A stretch of 64,000 nucleotides of DNA from Oscillatoria sp. SIO1A7 (GTDB lineage Bacteria; Cyanobacteriota; Cyanobacteriia; Cyanobacteriales; Laspinemataceae): positions 1-64,000 of the forward strand of contig JAAHFN010000006.1 in NCBI GenBank assembly GCA_010672965.1, in the 5' to 3' direction. Under the pieces are notes generated by a model, which searched no databases, was not told the origin of the DNA, and saw only the letters and a list, made by a program, of their open reading frames with translations. Shown here one piece after another: positions 3,178 to 54,452 of this stretch. A program made the translations under genes and the position numbers. Each line of letters opens with the position of its first letter. Within the stretch, counting starts at the first letter, position 1.

Positions 3178-4401
3178 ATGATAACTGCGGCAGCAATGGA
3201 AAAAACGGCAATCCCATCTGAAACGAAAACTAAGTCGTCAAAAGAAAGGTCAGCGCAGAAAGAGGCGTCGCCACTAAAGATTTTGCAGAATATAGTGCAA
3301 AAAAAGATTTCTGGCAGGTTGACGGTGCGCGACCCGAATGACGAGTCAATTTTTTGGCGCGTTCATTTTGGCAATGGTAAGGTGCATTTTGCTACTAGCG
3401 CTATGGGTAAAAGGGAGAGGTTAGAGTATATTTTGCAAAGGTATTGTCCGGGGCTAGACTGTAAATCAGCGGGAAGGTTTAAGTCGGATTACGAGCTAAT
3501 TTGCCATTACTGGAAGGCAGAAAAACTGTCTTTGCAGCAAGCGCGCAAGCTAATGTTCGTGCTGAGCCAGGAAGCATTCGTACAGCTATTAGCTTTACCA
3601 AAAGCAGTCGTCCAGTTTGAGAAAACTGTAGGACTAGATCCGATTTTGTTGTCCGTGCCTCTAAAAGAGGTAATTTTGCCTATGCGAGGGACTATAAATC
3701 AGTGGCAGCAACTGCGACCGGAAATCAATTCTCCTTTCCAGCGGTTAGAGCTAAAGAACTTGGAAGAACTGCCCAACCTGCTGTGGCAAAAGGTGCGGGA
3801 CATTAAATACATCCAAGCTCTGGGTAAAATTCTGGCTAAGAATCTGTCTTTGTACGAACTCGCCCGCCATTTAAAAACCGATACATTATCTTTAGCTGCT
3901 TTGTTGCAGCCATTGGTGCGAGCCGGAGCAGTAGAAGTAAATCCCTATCGCTGTCCTCAATCTAACAGCGGACCGATTATTGCCTGCATTGATGACAGCA
4001 GTACGGTGCAGCGAAACGTGAAAATGATTTTGGAGGCAGCAGGCTTTCGGGTGCTGGGAATCTCAGAACCGGCAAAAGCCTTGAGTGCTTTAGCTCGTTA
4101 TAAGCCAGCGTTGGTATTAATGGACATAAATATGCCAGAAATAAACGGCTATGAACTGTCGCGCTTGCTGCGACAGTCCGACCAGTTGCAGGAAGTTCCG
4201 ATTGTTATGCTAACTGGGCGAGATGGCTTGATTGATAAGTTGCGGGCTCGCATGGTAGGCGCTAATGACTATATAACTAAACCCTTTGAGCCACAACAAC
4301 TTTTGGCAACTGTTAGGGACCACCTGGAAGAACCTAAGAATCGATTGGAGCCTATGGCGAGTTCTGGCAATATTGGTGGGGTGCAGTTGGCTTATAGCTA
4401 A
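3178..4401 (+). CDS. PatA-type response regulator (PATAN domain + receiver), copy 1
   Basis: 407 residues. Residues about 35-260 form a PATAN-like region with the typical FGNGKVHFAT segment. Residues about 265-385 form a CheY-like receiver with acidic pocket CIDDS, phospho-acceptor D316 in LMDINMPEINGYEL, and the conserved KPF lysine. Proteins of this make-up (PixG/PilG/TaxP1 in Synechocystis, PatA in Nostoc) act in phototaxis, pilus control or heterocyst patterning. The following CheW and CheA genes favour a motility role. The start is supported by AAAAGGAG nine bases upstream. The first 30 residues are Lys/Ser-rich and poorly conserved. A paralogue of nearly equal length lies downstream, separated by 1.1 kb of repeats. 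Confidence 0.85.
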   Translation: MITAAAMEKTAIPSETKTKSSKERSAQKEASPLKILQNIVQKKISGRLTVRDPNDESIFWRVHFGNGKVHFATSAMGKRERLEYILQRYCPGLDCKSAGRFKSDYELICHYWKAEKLSLQQARKLMFVLSQEAFVQLLALPKAVVQFEKTVGLDPILLSVPLKEVILPMRGTINQWQQLRPEINSPFQRLELKNLEELPNLLWQKVRDIKYIQALGKILAKNLSLYELARHLKTDTLSLAALLQPLVRAGAVEVNPYRCPQSNSGPIIACIDDSSTVQRNVKMILEAAGFRVLGISEPAKALSALARYKPALVLMDINMPEINGYELSRLLRQSDQLQEVPIVMLTGRDGLIDKLRARMVGANDYITKPFEPQQLLATVRDHLEEPKNRLEPMASSGNIGGVQLAYS

Positions 4402-5535: not shown

Positions 5536-6762
5536 ATGACTGTTTCTTTGATATCAGAGCCTCAGAGGTCGGGAGCTACTCCGATGCTGGTTCAGCCTTT
5601 TCAGGCCCTACAGACCGTTGCGGCCAAGCAAATGTCAGGTCGCTTGAGCTTCCGGGCTCCCCAAGAAAGTCAAGCCCTTTGGCAAATATATTTGGGAGGT
5701 GGCAAAATTCATTTTGCTACCAGTACCATAGGTCAGCGAGAACGCTTGGCTTATTTTCTGCAATGGTACTACCCGGAGCTGCAACCCCAAGCATTGCCAA
5801 AGTCTAGCTGCGACTATCAGTTCGTTTGCGATTGCTGGAAAGAAGGCCAATTGTCTTTGGAACAAGTTCGCAAGCTCTTGTTTTGGATGATTCAGGAAGC
5901 GATCGTCCAGGTACTGGCCTTGCCTAAATCGGTACTGAAATATGACAAAACTGCGGGACTCGACCCAATTCTGTTGTCGCAACCCCTCAATAAGGTGGTT
6001 CTGCCCATGCGAGGAGCTATAAAAAATTGGCAGCAGTTGCAACCGGAGATTAGTTCTCCCTTTCAGCGACCGAAGGTAAAAAATATCGAGCTTATTCCCA
6101 AAGTGATTCGGCAGCATACCCAGAACCTTGAATTTATAAAATCTCTAGAGATAGTTCTGCAAGAGGGTCTTTGTCTTTATGAAGCAGCTAGAGCTTTAAA
6201 AACTGATGCTTTAGGAATGGCCCGTTTGTGGCAGCCGCTAGTGCAGGCCGGAGCGATCGCGATGACTTCTTATGTCGAGAGCTGTTGTAGATGTCGGCAA
6301 GCCGACGATCGCCTGGTTATTGCTTGCATAGATGACAGCCTGGTATTGCAGCGGAATGTGGCAGCAATTTTAGAAGCTGGAGGCTACCGAACGATTTCTA
6401 TCACCGAACCTGCTAAAGCATTAACTGCTTTAGTTAGATATAAACCAGCTCTGATCTTAATGGACGTTGATATGCCCGATATCAATGGCTACGAACTTTG
6501 TCGGATGCTTCACCAAGCGTCGAGCTTGAAGAATATACCAATTGTTATGCTAACCGGGCGAGAGGCTATGGTAGATAAATTGCGAGCTAGGATGGCAGGG
6601 GCTAAGGGATTTATAACCAAGCCCTTTAAACCGATTAAGCTATTGAGCATGGTTGAGAAAAAACTTTCAATTCGTCTTGCTTTGGATACTGAAGGCGAGA
6701 TGAAGAATAATATAGCTATCGGGGAGAAGGGCAAAGGGCGATCGCTGTTGCCAAGATTGTAG
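5536..6762 (+). CDS. PatA-type response regulator (PATAN domain + receiver), copy 2
   Basis: 408 residues, closely similar along its whole length to the gene at 3178 (shared segments such as KIHFATSTIGQRERLAY, LPKSVLKYDKTAGLDPILL, MLTGREAMVDKLRARM). It has an N-terminal PATAN region and a C-terminal receiver with CIDDS, phospho-acceptor D310 and KPF. It starts a tight run with the CheW gene 57 bases downstream and CheA 8 bases after that. In the usual pix/tax/pil gene order a PatA protein is followed by a stand-alone CheY; here a second PatA-like protein sits in that place, apparently from tandem duplication. No strong ribosome site precedes the ATG. Confidence 0.85.
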   Translation: MTVSLISEPQRSGATPMLVQPFQALQTVAAKQMSGRLSFRAPQESQALWQIYLGGGKIHFATSTIGQRERLAYFLQWYYPELQPQALPKSSCDYQFVCDCWKEGQLSLEQVRKLLFWMIQEAIVQVLALPKSVLKYDKTAGLDPILLSQPLNKVVLPMRGAIKNWQQLQPEISSPFQRPKVKNIELIPKVIRQHTQNLEFIKSLEIVLQEGLCLYEAARALKTDALGMARLWQPLVQAGAIAMTSYVESCCRCRQADDRLVIACIDDSLVLQRNVAAILEAGGYRTISITEPAKALTALVRYKPALILMDVDMPDINGYELCRMLHQASSLKNIPIVMLTGREAMVDKLRARMAGAKGFITKPFKPIKLLSMVEKKLSIRLALDTEGEMKNNIAIGEKGKGRSLLPRL

Positions 6763-6819: not shown

Positions 6820-7407
6820 GTGAAAGAGTATTTTGATATTCAATTAGGCAAACGGGCTCGCTTGGTGCTACCATCGGAAGTGATGGCAGAAACAATAGCT
6901 GTCGAACGAGGCGCAATTTGTCCGATTCCGGGAATAACAGACGCTTACCTGGGAGTTTTGTATCGACGCGGTCAATTATTATGGGTATTGGATTTGGCTG
7001 AATTTTTGAGCGCATCGATGGGACTTAAACTCCCTCCTTTGCCCGAGGGGGGATTAACCATGTCTGACCGGCTGACTCTGGTTGTGTTAACAGAGCCTAG
7101 CTCGGGGAATAATTCGGGTAAAAATTCGGGTAAAGACTCGGAAAAAAAAACAACTGATAGTAGCGCTCGGAAGGAGGCATCGCAGCAATCTCAAATTATC
7201 TGCGCGGTATCGGCTGTCAGGGGAATAGTTAGTTTACATCCAGGGAGTTTTGAACCGCTGCCGCCGAAAGCAAAAAGAGTGGTGGGAGGTTATTTTTCTG
7301 GTTTAGCAGAAATTCAGGAGAGAGGGGAAGACAAAACAACAGCTATTGCCGCCGTTCTCAATGTGGCAGCTTTATTTGCTGGACTTGAAACAAATGGCAA
7401 GGCTTAG
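6820..7407 (+). CDS. CheW-like coupling protein
   Basis: 195 residues covering one CheW domain (FDIQLGKRARLVLPSEVMAE, PGITDAYLGVLYRRGQLLWVLDL, and a C-terminal VLNVAALF). CheW adaptors tie the histidine kinase to a membrane chemoreceptor. A Ser/Lys/Gly-rich loop (GNNSGKNSGKDSEK, residues about 92-120) is unusual for the family. GTG is the start; the overlapping ATG at 6816 runs into a stop after a few codons. The TAG stop overlaps the AGGAGG ribosome site of cheA, so the two genes are almost certainly co-transcribed. No receptor gene is present in the window. Confidence 0.8.
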   Translation: MKEYFDIQLGKRARLVLPSEVMAETIAVERGAICPIPGITDAYLGVLYRRGQLLWVLDLAEFLSASMGLKLPPLPEGGLTMSDRLTLVVLTEPSSGNNSGKNSGKDSEKKTTDSSARKEASQQSQIICAVSAVRGIVSLHPGSFEPLPPKAKRVVGGYFSGLAEIQERGEDKTTAIAAVLNVAALFAGLETNGKA

Positions 7408-7415
7408 GAGGCAAA

Positions 7416-10400
7416 ATGAACGGGACACTCGATAGCAAGATTTTAGAAGCGATCGCCCGAGAATCGCGCCAGAGCTTTTTGACGGAAGAAGCGCCAGAGC
7501 ATTTATCTGCCCTCGATCGCGGTATCGAGCAATTGCGCTCCGGGGATGCAGATTACCCAACTATAATTCGCGCCGCTCACTCTCTCAAAGGAGGGGCGGG
7601 GTTAGCGGGAATGCCAGAATTGTCGCGTCTGGCTCACAAGGTAGAAGACTTGCTCATCGCCCTCCAAGAAGAGCGGGTAGCAGAATTAGAAAAAGGCCAA
7701 AAACTGCTCTGTGCGGGTATGGAATGTATGGGCGAGATTCTCGTCCTCGCTTTTAACAATAGAGAAGCAGAAGCAGGGGAGAAAAAAGCTGAAAGTCTCA
7801 TTGCCAAGCTAGACGAGTTTGTAGAGTCTCTCCCAGAAACCCCCCTAGAGGTAGCAGTCCCCAAGGGCGAAATTAATATTTTTCTGAAAACAGTTCTGGA
7901 AGCCGATTTAGAAGAATGCCTGACAACTCTGGAAAAAAATCTGGCTGCTCTGTCTCCGGGTCAAGCGGCACAAGAACTTCCGTCAGTGCTGCTGGCGATC
8001 GCTAACTTTTTTGAAGAAATAACCCTTTTAGGACAGACTCTCAATCTGACTTGGCTAACGGATATCGCTGGTCATCTGAACGAATTGCTCGACCGGGATG
8101 ACCTGACTGCAGAGCCACTAACAATAGCGATCGCTCAAATCCGATCGCATCGAGCTGAAGTTTTGCGATCGGGATTGGGGGACTTGGGGACCGGGGGACT
8201 TGGGTTGGCAGCGGATGGGGTAACGGATGGAACGGATGTGGCAGCGGATGGGGAGCAGGGAGCAGGGGAAGGCTGGGAGGATTTGACAGCGGATGGGGTA
8301 ACGGATGGAACGGATGTGGCAGCGGATGGGGAGCAGGGAGCAGGGGAAGGCTGGGGGGATTTGACAGCGGATGGGGTAACGGATGGAACGGATGTGGCAG
8401 CGGATGGGGAGCAGGAAGGCTGGGGGGATTTGGCAGCGGATGGGGTAACGGATGGAACGGATGTGGCAGCGGATGGGGAGCAGGGAGCAGGGGAAGGCTG
8501 GGGGGATTTGACAGACCTAGACCTGGGAGCAGGGGAAGGCTGGGAGGATTTGGCAGACCTAGACCTGGGAGCAGGGGAAGGCTGGGAGGATTTGGCAGAC
8601 CTAGACCTGGGAGACCTGGGGACCGGGGGAGGGGGAAGTGTGGGAAGTGTGGGAAGTGTGGGAAGTGTGGGAAGTGTGGGAAGTGTGGGAAGTGTGGGAA
8701 GTGTGGGAAGTGTGGGAAGTGTGGGAAGCATAATCCGTTCTCCCACGCCTCCCATTCCTCCCACGCCTCCCATTCCTCCCACACCTCCCCCCCTCACCCA
8801 GTCTCCCCAGGAGCCGGAGGAGCTGGAGGAAGATCCTATAACTTTAGAAGAATTTACTCTAAACTCCCCAATTCCAGAACGGTTTTTAAAATATATGGTC
8901 GTTGAATCTACGGCCGAACCGGATTTTGCCACTCTGGATCTGCGGGTGCCGGTATTGAAGGTAGATAGGATGACCAATAATGTCGGGGATTTGTTGATTA
9001 ATTACGAGCGGTTGTTGCAGAGTCTGAAAAACAAGTCTAACCCAGATGCAAAAACAGAGACGAATCAAGAGTGGCAAGGGCTTATCGGAGAAATGCGCGC
9101 CGATATCGATCGCCTATACCAGGATTTGATGGAATCGCGGATGGTGCCTTTCGAGCAGATTGCCCAAAAGTTTAAAGTCCCGCTTAGAAACCTCAAACAG
9201 CAACATGGTAAAGATGTCGAGTTGGTGGTAATCGGCAAAGAAACTATGGTGGATAGGGTGATAATGGAGCAGTTACAAACTCCTTTTACCCACTTGTTTC
9301 GCAATGCTTTCGACCACGGGATAGAAAGGCCAGCAGAAAGAAAAAGTCAAGGCAAATCCTCTTGCGCCACTATTACTCTATCGGCAACTATACAAGGACC
9401 GGTGCTGGCGATCGCGATGGAGGACGATGGGCGCGGTATAGATACGGAGAAAGTCTATCGGCGAGCTAAGGAAAAAGGACTTATCTCCAAAAAATATAGC
9501 GAAACTAGCAACGATGAAGTTCTCCAACTTCTATTTGCCCCTGGATTTTCTACGGCAGCGAAAGTAACTGACTTATCCGGTCGAGGGGTTGGATTGGAGA
9601 TAGTCTTGGAACGAGTCGCCCGGGTGGGAGGCTCTATCCGAGTAGAAACGGAGCTGGGCAAAGGGACGAAGTTTACAATCGGGATTCCCTTAACTCTGAG
9701 CGTTCTTCCTTTGTTGCTCTGTCGCGCTGGCGGGAGAACTCTGGCGATTCCCGCTCGGGATCTAAAAGAATTAATTAATTTAGCCGATACCCGGGAGTCG
9801 GCAGTTCTCTGGCAAAATCAATCCCTGCCTGTATTGTCTTTGTTAGAGATTCTGCCTTATGGGCGCTATGAAAGAGCTATCCAAAAAAATAGCGGCTATC
9901 CCAGGTCTGGAGAGAAATCCATGCAAGGACTGGTTCTGGATGCGAGAGGGGAGTTGGTGGTATTAGCTGTAGATGCGCTGCTAGAAGAACGGCAATTGGT
10001 ACTGAAACCTTTTGATCCCAAGGTCTCAGTGCCTCCTTATGTGGCCGGTTGTACTGTCTTGGGCACCGGCGAAGTGGTTCCGGTACTATCTCCCTATTAT
10101 TTAAGAGAGTTAATCAATGCTCGTCTCGATAAGTCAAAAGTCAAAAGTCAAAAGTCAAAAGTATCTAAGAGCGATCGCCCGGAGCTTGCCTCTCAAGCCC
10201 AGACTGCAGCCGATAAGTCAAAAGTCAAAAGTCAAAAGTCAAAAGTATCTAAGAGCGATCGCCAGGATATTGCCTCTCAAGCCCAGACTGCAGCCGATAA
10301 GTCAAAAGTCAAAAGTCAAAAGTCAAAAGTATCTAAGAGCGAGCGCCAGGATATTGCCCAGACTGCAGCCGATAAGTCAAAAGTCAAAAGTCAAAAGTCA

Positions 10401-11666
10401 AAAGTATCTAAGAGCGAGCGCCAGGATATTGCCCAGACTGCAGCCGATAAGTCAAAAGTCAAAAGTCAAAAGTCAAAAGTATCTAAGAGCGAGCGCCAGG
10501 ATATTGCCCAGACTGCAGCCGATAAGTCAAAAGTCAAAAGTCAAAAGTCAAAAGTATCTAAGAGCGAGCGCCCGGAGCTTGCCTCTCAAGCCCAGACTGC
10601 AGCCGATAAGTCAAAAGTCAAAAGTCAAAAGTCAAAAGTATCTAAGAGCGAGCGCCCGGAGCTTGCCTCTCAAGCCCAGACTGCAGCCGATAAGTCAAAA
10701 GTCAAAAGTCAAAAGTCAAAAGTATCTAAGAGCGAGCGCCCGGAGCTTGCCTCTCAAGCCCAGACTGCAGCCGATAAGTCAAAAGTCAAAAGTCAAAAGT
10801 CAAAAGTATCTAAGAGCGAGCGCCCGGAGCTTGCCTCTCAAGCCCAGACTGCAGCCGATAAGTCAAAAGTCAAAAGTCAAAAGTCAAAAGTATCTAAGAG
10901 CGATCGCCAGGATATTGCCTCTCAAGCCCAGACTGCAGCCGATAAGTCAAAAGTCAAAAGTCAAAAGTCAAAAGTATCTAAGAGCGATCGCCAGGATATT
11001 GCCCAGACTGCAGCCGATAAGTCAAAAGTCAAAAGTCAAAAGTCAAAAGTATCTAAGAGCGATCGCCAGGATATTGCCTCTCAAGCCCAGACTGCAGCCG
11101 ATAAGTCAAAAGTCAAAAGTCAAAAGTCAAAAGTATCTAAGAGCGATCGCCAGGATATTGCCCAGACTGCAGCCGATAAGTCAAAAGTCAAAAGTCAAAA
11201 GTCAAAAGTATCTAAGAGCGATCGCCAGGATATTGCCTCTCAAGCCCAGACTGCAGCCGATAAGTCAAAAGTCAAAAGTCAAAAGTCAAAAGTATCTCAA
11301 TTCAGGGTTTTAATGGTGGATGATTCTCTTTCTATCCGTAAGTCTTTAGAAAAGCTGCTGCCTCTAGGGGGATTCGCAGTCACAGCTTGCACCGATGGTC
11401 GAGAAGCCTTGGCAGTATTAGAGCGATCGCCAGAAGCATTTGACTTAGTTCTCTCGGATTTAGAAATGCCCCATCTCAATGGATTTAAATTATTGAAGCA
11501 GATTCGCTCTCGTCCCCAGTGGCAAAACTTGCCCGTAGCCCTACTAACTTCCCGGGATAGCAAGGAATACCGGCAAAAGGCAAAAGAACTCGGGGTAACG
11601 GCATATTTTACCAAGCCCTTTCAAGCAACCGAGTTATTGCCCGCCCTACAAAAGCTGGTCATGTAA
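7416..11666 (+). CDS. CheA-type hybrid histidine kinase with expanded repeat linkers
   Basis: 1416 residues. Order: HPt domain (AAHSLKGGAG, phospho-acceptor H55); a second helical region (about 145-245); a minisatellite-encoded acidic segment (about 265-405); a Gly-Ser-Val tract and Pro-rich stretch (about 407-465); dimerisation helices and ATPase domain (FRNAFDHGIERP, EDDGRGID, DLSGRGVGLEIV); a CheW domain; a 14.5-unit Lys/Ser-rich repeat (about 905-1295); and a C-terminal receiver (MVDDS, D1348, KPF). PixL/PilL/TaxAY-type kinases have this HPt-kinase-CheW-receiver order. All catalytic motifs are intact and the frame stays open through every repeat, so the protein is probably made. Ribosome site TTAGGAGG precedes the ATG. 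The family is normally several hundred residues shorter. Confidence 0.92.
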   Translation: MNGTLDSKILEAIARESRQSFLTEEAPEHLSALDRGIEQLRSGDADYPTIIRAAHSLKGGAGLAGMPELSRLAHKVEDLLIALQEERVAELEKGQKLLCAGMECMGEILVLAFNNREAEAGEKKAESLIAKLDEFVESLPETPLEVAVPKGEINIFLKTVLEADLEECLTTLEKNLAALSPGQAAQELPSVLLAIANFFEEITLLGQTLNLTWLTDIAGHLNELLDRDDLTAEPLTIAIAQIRSHRAEVLRSGLGDLGTGGLGLAADGVTDGTDVAADGEQGAGEGWEDLTADGVTDGTDVAADGEQGAGEGWGDLTADGVTDGTDVAADGEQEGWGDLAADGVTDGTDVAADGEQGAGEGWGDLTDLDLGAGEGWEDLADLDLGAGEGWEDLADLDLGDLGTGGGGSVGSVGSVGSVGSVGSVGSVGSVGSVGSVGSIIRSPTPPIPPTPPIPPTPPPLTQSPQEPEELEEDPITLEEFTLNSPIPERFLKYMVVESTAEPDFATLDLRVPVLKVDRMTNNVGDLLINYERLLQSLKNKSNPDAKTETNQEWQGLIGEMRADIDRLYQDLMESRMVPFEQIAQKFKVPLRNLKQQHGKDVELVVIGKETMVDRVIMEQLQTPFTHLFRNAFDHGIERPAERKSQGKSSCATITLSATIQGPVLAIAMEDDGRGIDTEKVYRRAKEKGLISKKYSETSNDEVLQLLFAPGFSTAAKVTDLSGRGVGLEIVLERVARVGGSIRVETELGKGTKFTIGIPLTLSVLPLLLCRAGGRTLAIPARDLKELINLADTRESAVLWQNQSLPVLSLLEILPYGRYERAIQKNSGYPRSGEKSMQGLVLDARGELVVLAVDALLEERQLVLKPFDPKVSVPPYVAGCTVLGTGEVVPVLSPYYLRELINARLDKSKVKSQKSKVSKSDRPELASQAQTAADKSKVKSQKSKVSKSDRQDIASQAQTAADKSKVKSQKSKVSKSERQDIAQTAADKSKVKSQKSKVSKSERQDIAQTAADKSKVKSQKSKVSKSERQDIAQTAADKSKVKSQKSKVSKSERPELASQAQTAADKSKVKSQKSKVSKSERPELASQAQTAADKSKVKSQKSKVSKSERPELASQAQTAADKSKVKSQKSKVSKSERPELASQAQTAADKSKVKSQKSKVSKSDRQDIASQAQTAADKSKVKSQKSKVSKSDRQDIAQTAADKSKVKSQKSKVSKSDRQDIASQAQTAADKSKVKSQKSKVSKSDRQDIAQTAADKSKVKSQKSKVSKSDRQDIASQAQTAADKSKVKSQKSKVSQFRVLMVDDSLSIRKSLEKLLPLGGFAVTACTDGREALAVLERSPEAFDLVLSDLEMPHLNGFKLLKQIRSRPQWQNLPVALLTSRDSKEYRQKAKELGVTAYFTKPFQATELLPALQKLVM
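8208..8633 (+). repeat. 81-nt and 42-nt coding minisatellites in cheA
   Basis: About four copies of a unit near 81 bases encode variations of ADGVTDGTDVAADGEQ plus GAGEGWEDL. They are followed by three copies of a 42-base derivative encoding DLDLGAGEGWEDLA. Units differ by whole codons, so the frame is kept. The segment is acidic and probably disordered. Confidence 0.85.
8634..8728 (+). repeat. 9-nt coding repeat (Gly-Ser-Val) in cheA
   Basis: About ten copies of GGAAGTGTG encode a GSV tract. The DNA closely resembles the G-rich minisatellites at 1866-2237, 39221 and 54333, which suggests an intergenic repeat captured by the gene. A C-rich counterpart (CTCCCATTCCTCC-like, 8742-8800) follows and encodes a Pro/Thr tract. 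Confidence 0.85.
10128..11297 (+). repeat. 75/84-nt coding minisatellite between CheW and receiver
   Basis: Fourteen full units and one partial unit. Nine units are 84 bases and five are 75 bases (spacing checks out: 10128 + 1131 = 11259, the start of the partial unit). Each begins DKSKVKSQKSKVSKS, which is the heptamer AAAAGTC repeated about four times, followed by a variable part (DRPELASQAQTAA, ERQDIAQTAA and others). Units 1, 2 and 10-14 contain a HIP1 octamer; units 3-9 carry GCGAGCGC there instead. Because both unit lengths are multiples of three, a second long frame (10117-11313) is also open. Confidence 0.95.
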
Positions 11667-53385: not shown

Positions 53386-54234
53386 TTACCCCATAGGTCT
53401 TCGCTCTAAGATTCCCGAACCAAATACCCGTCCCAAGTTCAAATAGTCAAGGTGGACGTAGCCAATATGACAGTGGCAGGTTTGATTGCTACAGGTGCGA
53501 TCGCCCAGCGCCCTTTCAAAGTTCGGCTCGTAGATATTGCCGATCGCCTCTTTAATAAAATGACAGCGCCGCATAGTGCCGCTCCCATCCACAGAAATAA
53601 CCGACGCACCGGCACGACAGGACTTGCCATAGGAAGGATAATAATGAGTATTCAGATGATAAAGCGGGTCAATAGACTCAAAAAAACGCCTATCCTCTTC
53701 TGAAAGTTGCGGCAATTCTCGCTTCACGGCGTTAATCCAAAGATAGATATGAGAGGGCAACTCCCGACGCAGCGCCGCAATTTCTGACTTAAACTTGGGA
53801 AAGCCGACTACACCAGCGCTAAAGCGGACGCCGCGCCGATCCAATTCCAGACATTTCGCCATAAATTTTTCCCGAGGAACCCATTCCGGGTGAAAAGTTG
53901 ACCAAAGAGCTAACTTTTCTTTATTGCATTTTTCGACCCAATCGAGCTGGCAAGAGAGATTGGTTTGAATTGCTGCTTTATTGACATTGGGCAGATGGCT
54001 GAGCTTCGCTAGTGCCTGCTGATAAGCGGGATGAATCAGAGCTTCGCCCCAAGGAGTAAATAATATCGAAAACTGGTGTTGTCTCTGGGTGGCTATCCAG
54101 TCGGTAAATCTTTCTAAAGCTTGCCGATCTATAGACAACTCCGCTGCAGTTTGTTGCCGCTTGGCAAAGGGACAGTATTCGCATCCGTAGTTACAGCTAA
54201 CCAAAGAACCGCGATAGAGGATAGTGAGGTTCAT
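53386..54234 (-). CDS. Radical SAM protein, STM4011 family
   Basis: 282 residues beginning [20 protein letters not shown], with the iron-sulfur motif C14-x3-C18-x2-C21 and the [13 protein letters not shown] continuation typical of the STM4011 group. The C-terminus holds further cysteines ([20 protein letters not shown]) that may bind a second cluster. STM4011 members usually lie with partner genes (STM4012-4014), but none is visible here. The reaction is unknown. The frame continues upstream into translated minisatellite (to 54438); I chose the inner ATG because everything before it is repeat DNA. Confidence 0.82.
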
Positions 54235-54238
54235 AGGG

Positions 54239-54300
54239 GAATTGGGAATTGGGAATTGGGAATTGGGAATTGGGAATTGGGAATTGGGAATTGGGAATTC
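54239..54300. repeat. AATTGGG heptamer repeat at the radical SAM start
   Basis: About nine perfect tandem copies of AATTGGG end four bases from the start codon, in the position of the leader and ribosome site. Confidence 0.9.
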
Positions 54301-54332
54301 TGTAGGGTTTGCGCTCATAAACCTAAAAAGCC

Positions 54333-54452
54333 GGGGTGTGGGAGGTGTGGGAGGTGTGGGAGGTGTGGGAGGTGTGGGAGGTGTGCTGAAAGTTCTCCCC
54401 TCTCTCCCCACACTCCCCACACTCCCCCCTCTCCCCACACTCCCCCTTCGCC
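54333..54452. repeat. GTGTGGGAG / CTCCCCACA minisatellite pair
   Basis: Six GTGTGGGAG units followed by inverted CTCCCCACACTCC units, the same arrangement as at 1866-2237, 39221 and 39895. No gene up to 54632. Confidence 0.85.

Follow-up and report, generated by a model that had tools for sequence, protein, structure and literature searches.

The question raised by this locus is how a long tandem repeat came to lie between two domains of a taxis-type CheA, and whether it does anything for the kinase there. The window analysed was a stretch of 64,000 nucleotides from Oscillatoria sp. SIO1A7 (positions 1 to 64,000 of contig JAAHFN010000006.1). A sequence-only reading of this window had described the repeat and proposed that it could act as a contingency locus, in which changes of unit number tune motility.

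The CheA gene and its two expanded linkers

The repeat is part of a CheA-receiver gene, whose Pfam matches and translation give the order HPt, linker 1, H-kinase_dim, HATPase_c, CheW, linker 2, receiver. With these five domains in the expected order (HPt, residues 23-89; H-kinase_dim, 509-576; HATPase_c, 623-760; CheW, 766-893; Response_reg, 1298-1411) the protein belongs with the CheA proteins that carry a C-terminal receiver (PixL/TaxAY-like). The features of the locus, all on the forward strand, are the following.

3178-4401: upstream gene for a second PATAN-receiver-like protein, recognised by eye from its likeness to 5536-6762
5536-6762: PATAN-type receiver protein (Pfam Response_reg; N-terminus DUF4388-like, below the cutoff)
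6820-7407: CheW gene (ORF, Pfam), with a small 12-bp repeat-bearing insert of its own at 7102-7134 (repeat finding)
7416-11666: CheA-receiver hybrid kinase gene, 1416 aa (ORF; Pfam matches for all five domains)
8205-8613: second coding minisatellite, in the HPt-dimerisation linker, units of 78, 69 and 42 bp, product rich in Gly, Asp and Ala (Tandem Repeats Finder, comparison with relatives)
8633-8728: perfect 9-bp array in the same linker, GGGAAGTGT x 10.7, encoding (GSV)n (Tandem Repeats Finder)
10128-11297: coding minisatellite in the CheW-receiver linker, nine units of 84 bp and five of 75 bp plus a 39-bp partial unit (Tandem Repeats Finder, unit splitting)
10128-10211: first unit of this minisatellite, 84 bp, consisting of GATAAGTC(AAAAGTC)3AAAAGTATCTAAGA, GCGATCGC (HIP1), a variable middle and CAGACTGCAGCC (unit splitting)
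11298-11663: C-terminal receiver domain of CheA, with SDLEMP and TKPF retained (Pfam, translation)

Read by eye, the translation keeps AAHSLKGG, RNAFDHGIE, DDGRGID, GRGVGL, SDLEMP and TKPF, i.e. the HPt histidine, the ATP-site boxes and the receiver Asp and Lys; all the key motifs being present, the gene appears intact. It is adjoined by the CheW and PATAN-type receiver genes, and no receptor (MCP) gene was found next to this cluster within the window. A role of the kinase in phototaxis may be inferred from the likeness of the cluster to tax and pix loci.

Tandem Repeats Finder placed the array at 10127-11297, with a period of 84 and 14.5 copies. Cutting it at GATAAGTC gave 14 full units and the partial one, every one of them in the CheA frame. 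Unit splitting and the Pfam matches thus confirm that a coding minisatellite lies between the CheW and receiver domains and that it consists of about 14.5 units of 84 and 75 bases, a count that is provisional in view of the assembly (see below). The heptamers said to seed each unit are there, but not as four perfect copies: each unit starts with three perfect AAAAGTC between one truncated and one imperfect copy (4.6 copies of the 7-mer). Over their initial 39 bp the 15 copies do not differ. Self-identity of the array at offset 84 was 0.72, compared with a maximum of 0.31 among 200 shuffles, and AAAAGTCAAAAGTC, i.e. (AAAAGTC)2, occurred 30 times in the window, always inside the array, with 0 occurrences expected. 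Five unit types can be told apart by GAT or GAG, by CCGGAGCTT or CAGGATATT, and by a 9-bp in-frame stretch, TCTCAAGCC (encoding SQA), which makes the difference between 84-bp and 75-bp units. Along the array the types follow each other as 0,1,2,2,2,3,3,3,3,1,4,1,4,1, so that duplication apparently affected single units and also a pair of 159 bp. The HIP1 palindrome GCGATCGC occurs in seven units, and the other seven have GCGAGCGC, in which HIP1 is broken by one base.

The encoded peptide follows the pattern (DKSKVKSQKSKVSK-[SD/SE]R-[PEL/QDI]A-(SQA)-QTAA)n and contains 103 Lys/Arg and 42 Asp/Glu across 390 residues. We do not count the overlapping +1-frame ORF (10117-11313, 398 aa) as a gene, since its translation is only that of this array in a different frame.

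The CheW-receiver linker measured 393 residues, in agreement with the roughly 390 that had been proposed, whereas it had 8-49 residues in the 28 relatives in which it could be measured. The HPt-dimerisation linker, lengthened by the repeat-bearing region 8205-8728, has 257 residues compared with 26-79 in the same relatives (partial rows excluded). In 20 named loci, partly from the same genomes as the 28 relatives, the ranges were 8-48 and 18-82, respectively. Linker 2 is therefore about 8 to 50 times as long as in the compared relatives. Some relatives have small repeats of their own (of ISPEN and TPE/NPE types) in the CheW-receiver linker, so this position appears to be permissive in the family. 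By sequence reading, a CheA paralogue on contig C150 of the same genome (L190, 105000-113000) has a short, ordinary CheW-receiver linker. The paralogue also has a long acidic N-terminal region with repeats of SFSLEEESLDEIDSGFSFELEEQSSDAIAA.

The linker between CheW and receiver is predicted to be disordered. In an AlphaFold2 model of the C-terminal half of CheA (made with an alignment of only 10 sequences, pTM 0.31) residues 152-501 had pLDDT values below 50, the CheW domain had mostly 76-88 and the receiver 84-95. Estimated with a standard scaling law of our choice, the effective concentration of the tethered receiver would be about 13-15 mM with a tether of 20-22 residues but only about 0.07 mM with one of 393. 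One unit makes up about 7% of the tether length and would change the estimated concentration by about 12%. By these estimates a change of unit number would adjust effective concentration only weakly, and transfer to the molecule's own receiver would have no strong advantage left over transfer to another molecule.

The AAAAGTC heptamer in the genome and beyond

In its own genome (AAAAGTC)3 gave 225 forward and 148 reverse, together 373 overlapping 21-mer matches. It had zero matches in the 13 same-family genomes searched, and reappears in several other genomes of the order. All three forward frames of AAAAGTC are open, reading KSKVKSQ, therefore the repeat is able to enter coding DNA on one strand. 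Our survey, which comprised searches and 38 stretches of the own genome and was not exhaustive, found 44 other AAAAGTC clusters. Most of them lie outside genes and a few are in short ORFs without a Pfam match, but four are in frame within large Pfam-matched genes, always as KSKVKSQ.

L169, 1683-4838: RND pump, insert between its two halves
L173, 2033-6499, reverse strand: TPR-glycosyltransferase with insert
L174, 2151-6500: Ser/Thr kinase-AAA protein, insert between domains
L185, 2803-6837: ChlH with insert

Aligned with solved homologues, the inserts of the RND pump and of ChlH coincide with gaps or short loops. Downstream of its first insert the ChlH gene contains a second repeat, which is Gly/Asp-rich and of the GGSGWVADGTDG type; this enzyme of chlorophyll synthesis seems to tolerate two repeat inserts. 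In a genome of another genus (G054; L207, 1203-3077) there is a heptamer-derived insert (RSQKSEVRSQESEVKSQKSKVKSQE) near the N-terminus of an ORF, which reads like an alpha-glucan phosphorylase and may be an independent case of insertion. A search of the open-licence literature gave no paper that mentions the peptide KSKVKSQ.

Repeats are frequent in this DNA in general: tandem repeats account for 12.2% of the window bases (10.2% without the 7-12 kb region), compared with 2.6% in ten relative loci. The radical-SAM-like ORF at 53386-54438 (reverse strand) apparently begins within arrays of a 9-bp repeat and of the heptamer GGGAATT; the true start may lie farther downstream, or repeats may have lengthened the N-terminus.

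The corresponding position of the linker in three Oscillatoria orthologues bears a degenerate trace that resembles the heptamer. The best 28-mer matched in 20-22 of 28 positions, which was equalled by 0-1 of 300 shuffles, in a search made post hoc. The trace might represent an old, retained element, which would count against the explanation that we prefer; we regard it as a weak lead. A heptamer array ancestral to the linker was not adopted as an explanation, because the trace was found post hoc and because the genomes of these three Oscillatoria contain no pure AAAAGTC arrays.

Origin of the long tether

In our view the most probable explanation (probability roughly 0.7) is the arrival of a spreading heptamer in the DNA of the linker, where it became part of an amplified tandem unit; the outcome would be a long disordered tether, whose length is mainly a tolerated by-product. 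(AAAAGTC)n, having proliferated in this cyanobacterial genome, would have entered non-conserved linker DNA of the taxis-type CheA, where about 35 bp of heptamers and 40-50 bp of adjoining linker DNA would have been amplified together, by slippage or unequal recombination, into the 14.5-unit minisatellite. The product would be a disordered 393-residue CheW-receiver tether of net positive charge, in addition to the 257-residue linker that follows HPt, which would have expanded on its own. The kinase would most likely still be functional, with its receiver on a very long leash, and transfer from HPt to its own receiver would resemble an encounter of separate proteins. Tether length would then be, for the most part, a side effect of repeat turnover that the protein tolerates. 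We directly observe the array, its frame, the domains, the excess of length over relatives, the genome-wide heptamer and the other in-frame insertions. The second repeat-expanded linker in CheA and the presence of the heptamer in housekeeping proteins such as ChlH point to a general invasion of permissive sites by repeats. We infer the order of events, disorder in vivo, the function of the kinase and the near-neutrality of the tether, the last because identity within the array is too high for a selection test. It must be noted that the heptamer core does not differ between the 15 units, for which selection is a possible cause besides recent homogenisation.

It is possible to ask whether the assembler made the array or, more plausibly, changed its unit number. 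At their ends, which lie in pure heptamer arrays, contigs C33 and C53 have exactly 127 bp in common, as do C53 and C168, and C155 overlaps by 122 bp; the exact 127-bp overlaps point to a short-read de Bruijn assembly with k=127, which probably did not resolve pure heptamer arrays above about 127 bp. Exact repeats of 314, 297, 230 and 217 bp occur inside the CheA array, and as they exceed k, the count of 14.5 units must be taken as provisional. On the other hand, it is unlikely that an assembler would invent an ordered succession of five different unit types, a whole unit was found on no other contig among the matches listed, and the array begins and ends in frame within a conserved gene. We therefore consider an artefact improbable; the assembled count may be in error, but the array itself probably exists.

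According to the contingency proposal, unit number varies fast between cells, and tether length tunes phosphorylation of the kinase's own receiver and hence motility. The near-identical units, the runs 2,2,2 and 3,3,3,3 and the 159-bp higher-order repeat do imply recent turnover. The statement that unit lengths are multiples of three and keep the frame also proved correct, since simulated loss of an 84-bp or a 75-bp unit left the receiver in frame, and the frame was likewise kept when a unit was gained. The role itself found no support. A dial of which one unit moves the tether by 7% and the estimated effective concentration by about 12% is weak, HPt itself sits on a 257-residue linker, and many unrelated proteins of this genome, ChlH included, are also repeat-expanded. 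We think this role unlikely; the 59 relatives included no same-genus genome for a strain comparison. If there is a switch at all, slippage of the heptamer, which the sequence-only reading did not consider, would make a sharper one than loss of a unit. A unit that became longer or shorter by one or two heptamers would truncate CheA before the receiver, and the locus could phase-vary between receiver-plus and receiver-minus kinases. In simulations the receiver was lost when one unit was altered by 1 or 2 heptamers and retained when it was altered by 3. One neighbouring frame is open over the whole array (10117-11313), so truncation would occur either just past the array or within a unit. In the assembled copy, however, heptamer number does not vary among the 15 blocks, i.e. 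slippage is not seen, and each block has only three perfect heptamers. Such a frameshift switch seems very unlikely to us.

The long tether could also have been selected, as a positively charged disordered leash with a function of its own, for example in reaching distant partners or in binding membrane or nucleic acid. Its strong excess of length over relatives, the surplus of Lys/Arg over Asp/Glu, the predicted disorder and the intact receiver and kinase motifs would all agree with this. But the same peptide in unrelated proteins fits spread of a repeat better than function, and the long tether is common to none of the compared relatives, thus we hold selection to be a rather unlikely explanation. 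Compared with these alternatives, entry and amplification of a proliferating heptamer, with the length mainly tolerated, remains our preferred explanation.

Known systems and what the finding means

It is useful to compare the AAAAGTC arrays with repeats known to be dispersed in bacterial genomes. Heptameric repeats of Nostoc PCC 7120, such as GGGGA(C/T)T, are 68% intergenic and in part intragenic (PMC4692102). Our arrays resemble these cyanobacterial STRR in having a tandem 7-bp unit, genome-wide dispersal, a mostly intergenic location and variable copy number (PMC4692102), but AAAAGTC, unlike the Nostoc heptamer, is not G-rich, and in this genome it forms part of a higher-order coding minisatellite (84/75 bp) and is translated as KSKVKSQ within conserved proteins. 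The Rickettsia palindromic elements (Ogata et al.) are about 150 bp long and are found in frame in many unrelated conserved genes (reviewed in PMC10969869). Similarly, one repeat family is in frame in unrelated genes here, with a similar peptide (CheA and four others), whereas the AAAAGTC arrays are simple, direct, non-palindromic and of variable length. PARCELs, which are palindromic and amphipathic and occur in ORFs without assigned function, many with membrane-targeting sequences, also add tandem 25-residue repeats in variable number to coding sequences (PMC2996958); the CheA linker differs from them in being K/S/Q-rich and predicted to be disordered. The mode of action is thus that of heptameric repeats, Rickettsia palindromic elements and PARCELs, and it is the type of repeat that differs.

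The kinase shares HPt, dimerisation, ATPase, CheW and C-terminal receiver domains, and the adjoining PATAN-receiver and CheW genes, with the PixL/TaxAY-type CheA proteins of the Synechocystis tax loci (PMC5812497). Like the receiver-bearing CheA proteins of the Tfp class it gave no match to P2 (PMC10782961), a likeness judged by domains and not by a class tree. From both it differs in having no adjoining receptor gene in the window, and in its linkers, which are many-fold longer than in the compared relatives.

A bolder proposal would be that the stop-free 7-bp repeat is a recurrent, proteome-wide source of disordered segments, with a giant CheA tether whose number of units varies and whose receiver can be lost through heptamer slippage. 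We consider this speculative and improbable; if true, it would mean that repeat turnover in the genome is coupled to signalling diversity. A note of caution that follows from this work is that a coding minisatellite need not mean a contingency locus. The genome offers a clear example of intergenic-type simple repeats turned into protein material, one heptamer giving the same peptide in five unrelated proteins, and the CheA linker is a natural experiment on the length of linker that a signalling kinase tolerates.
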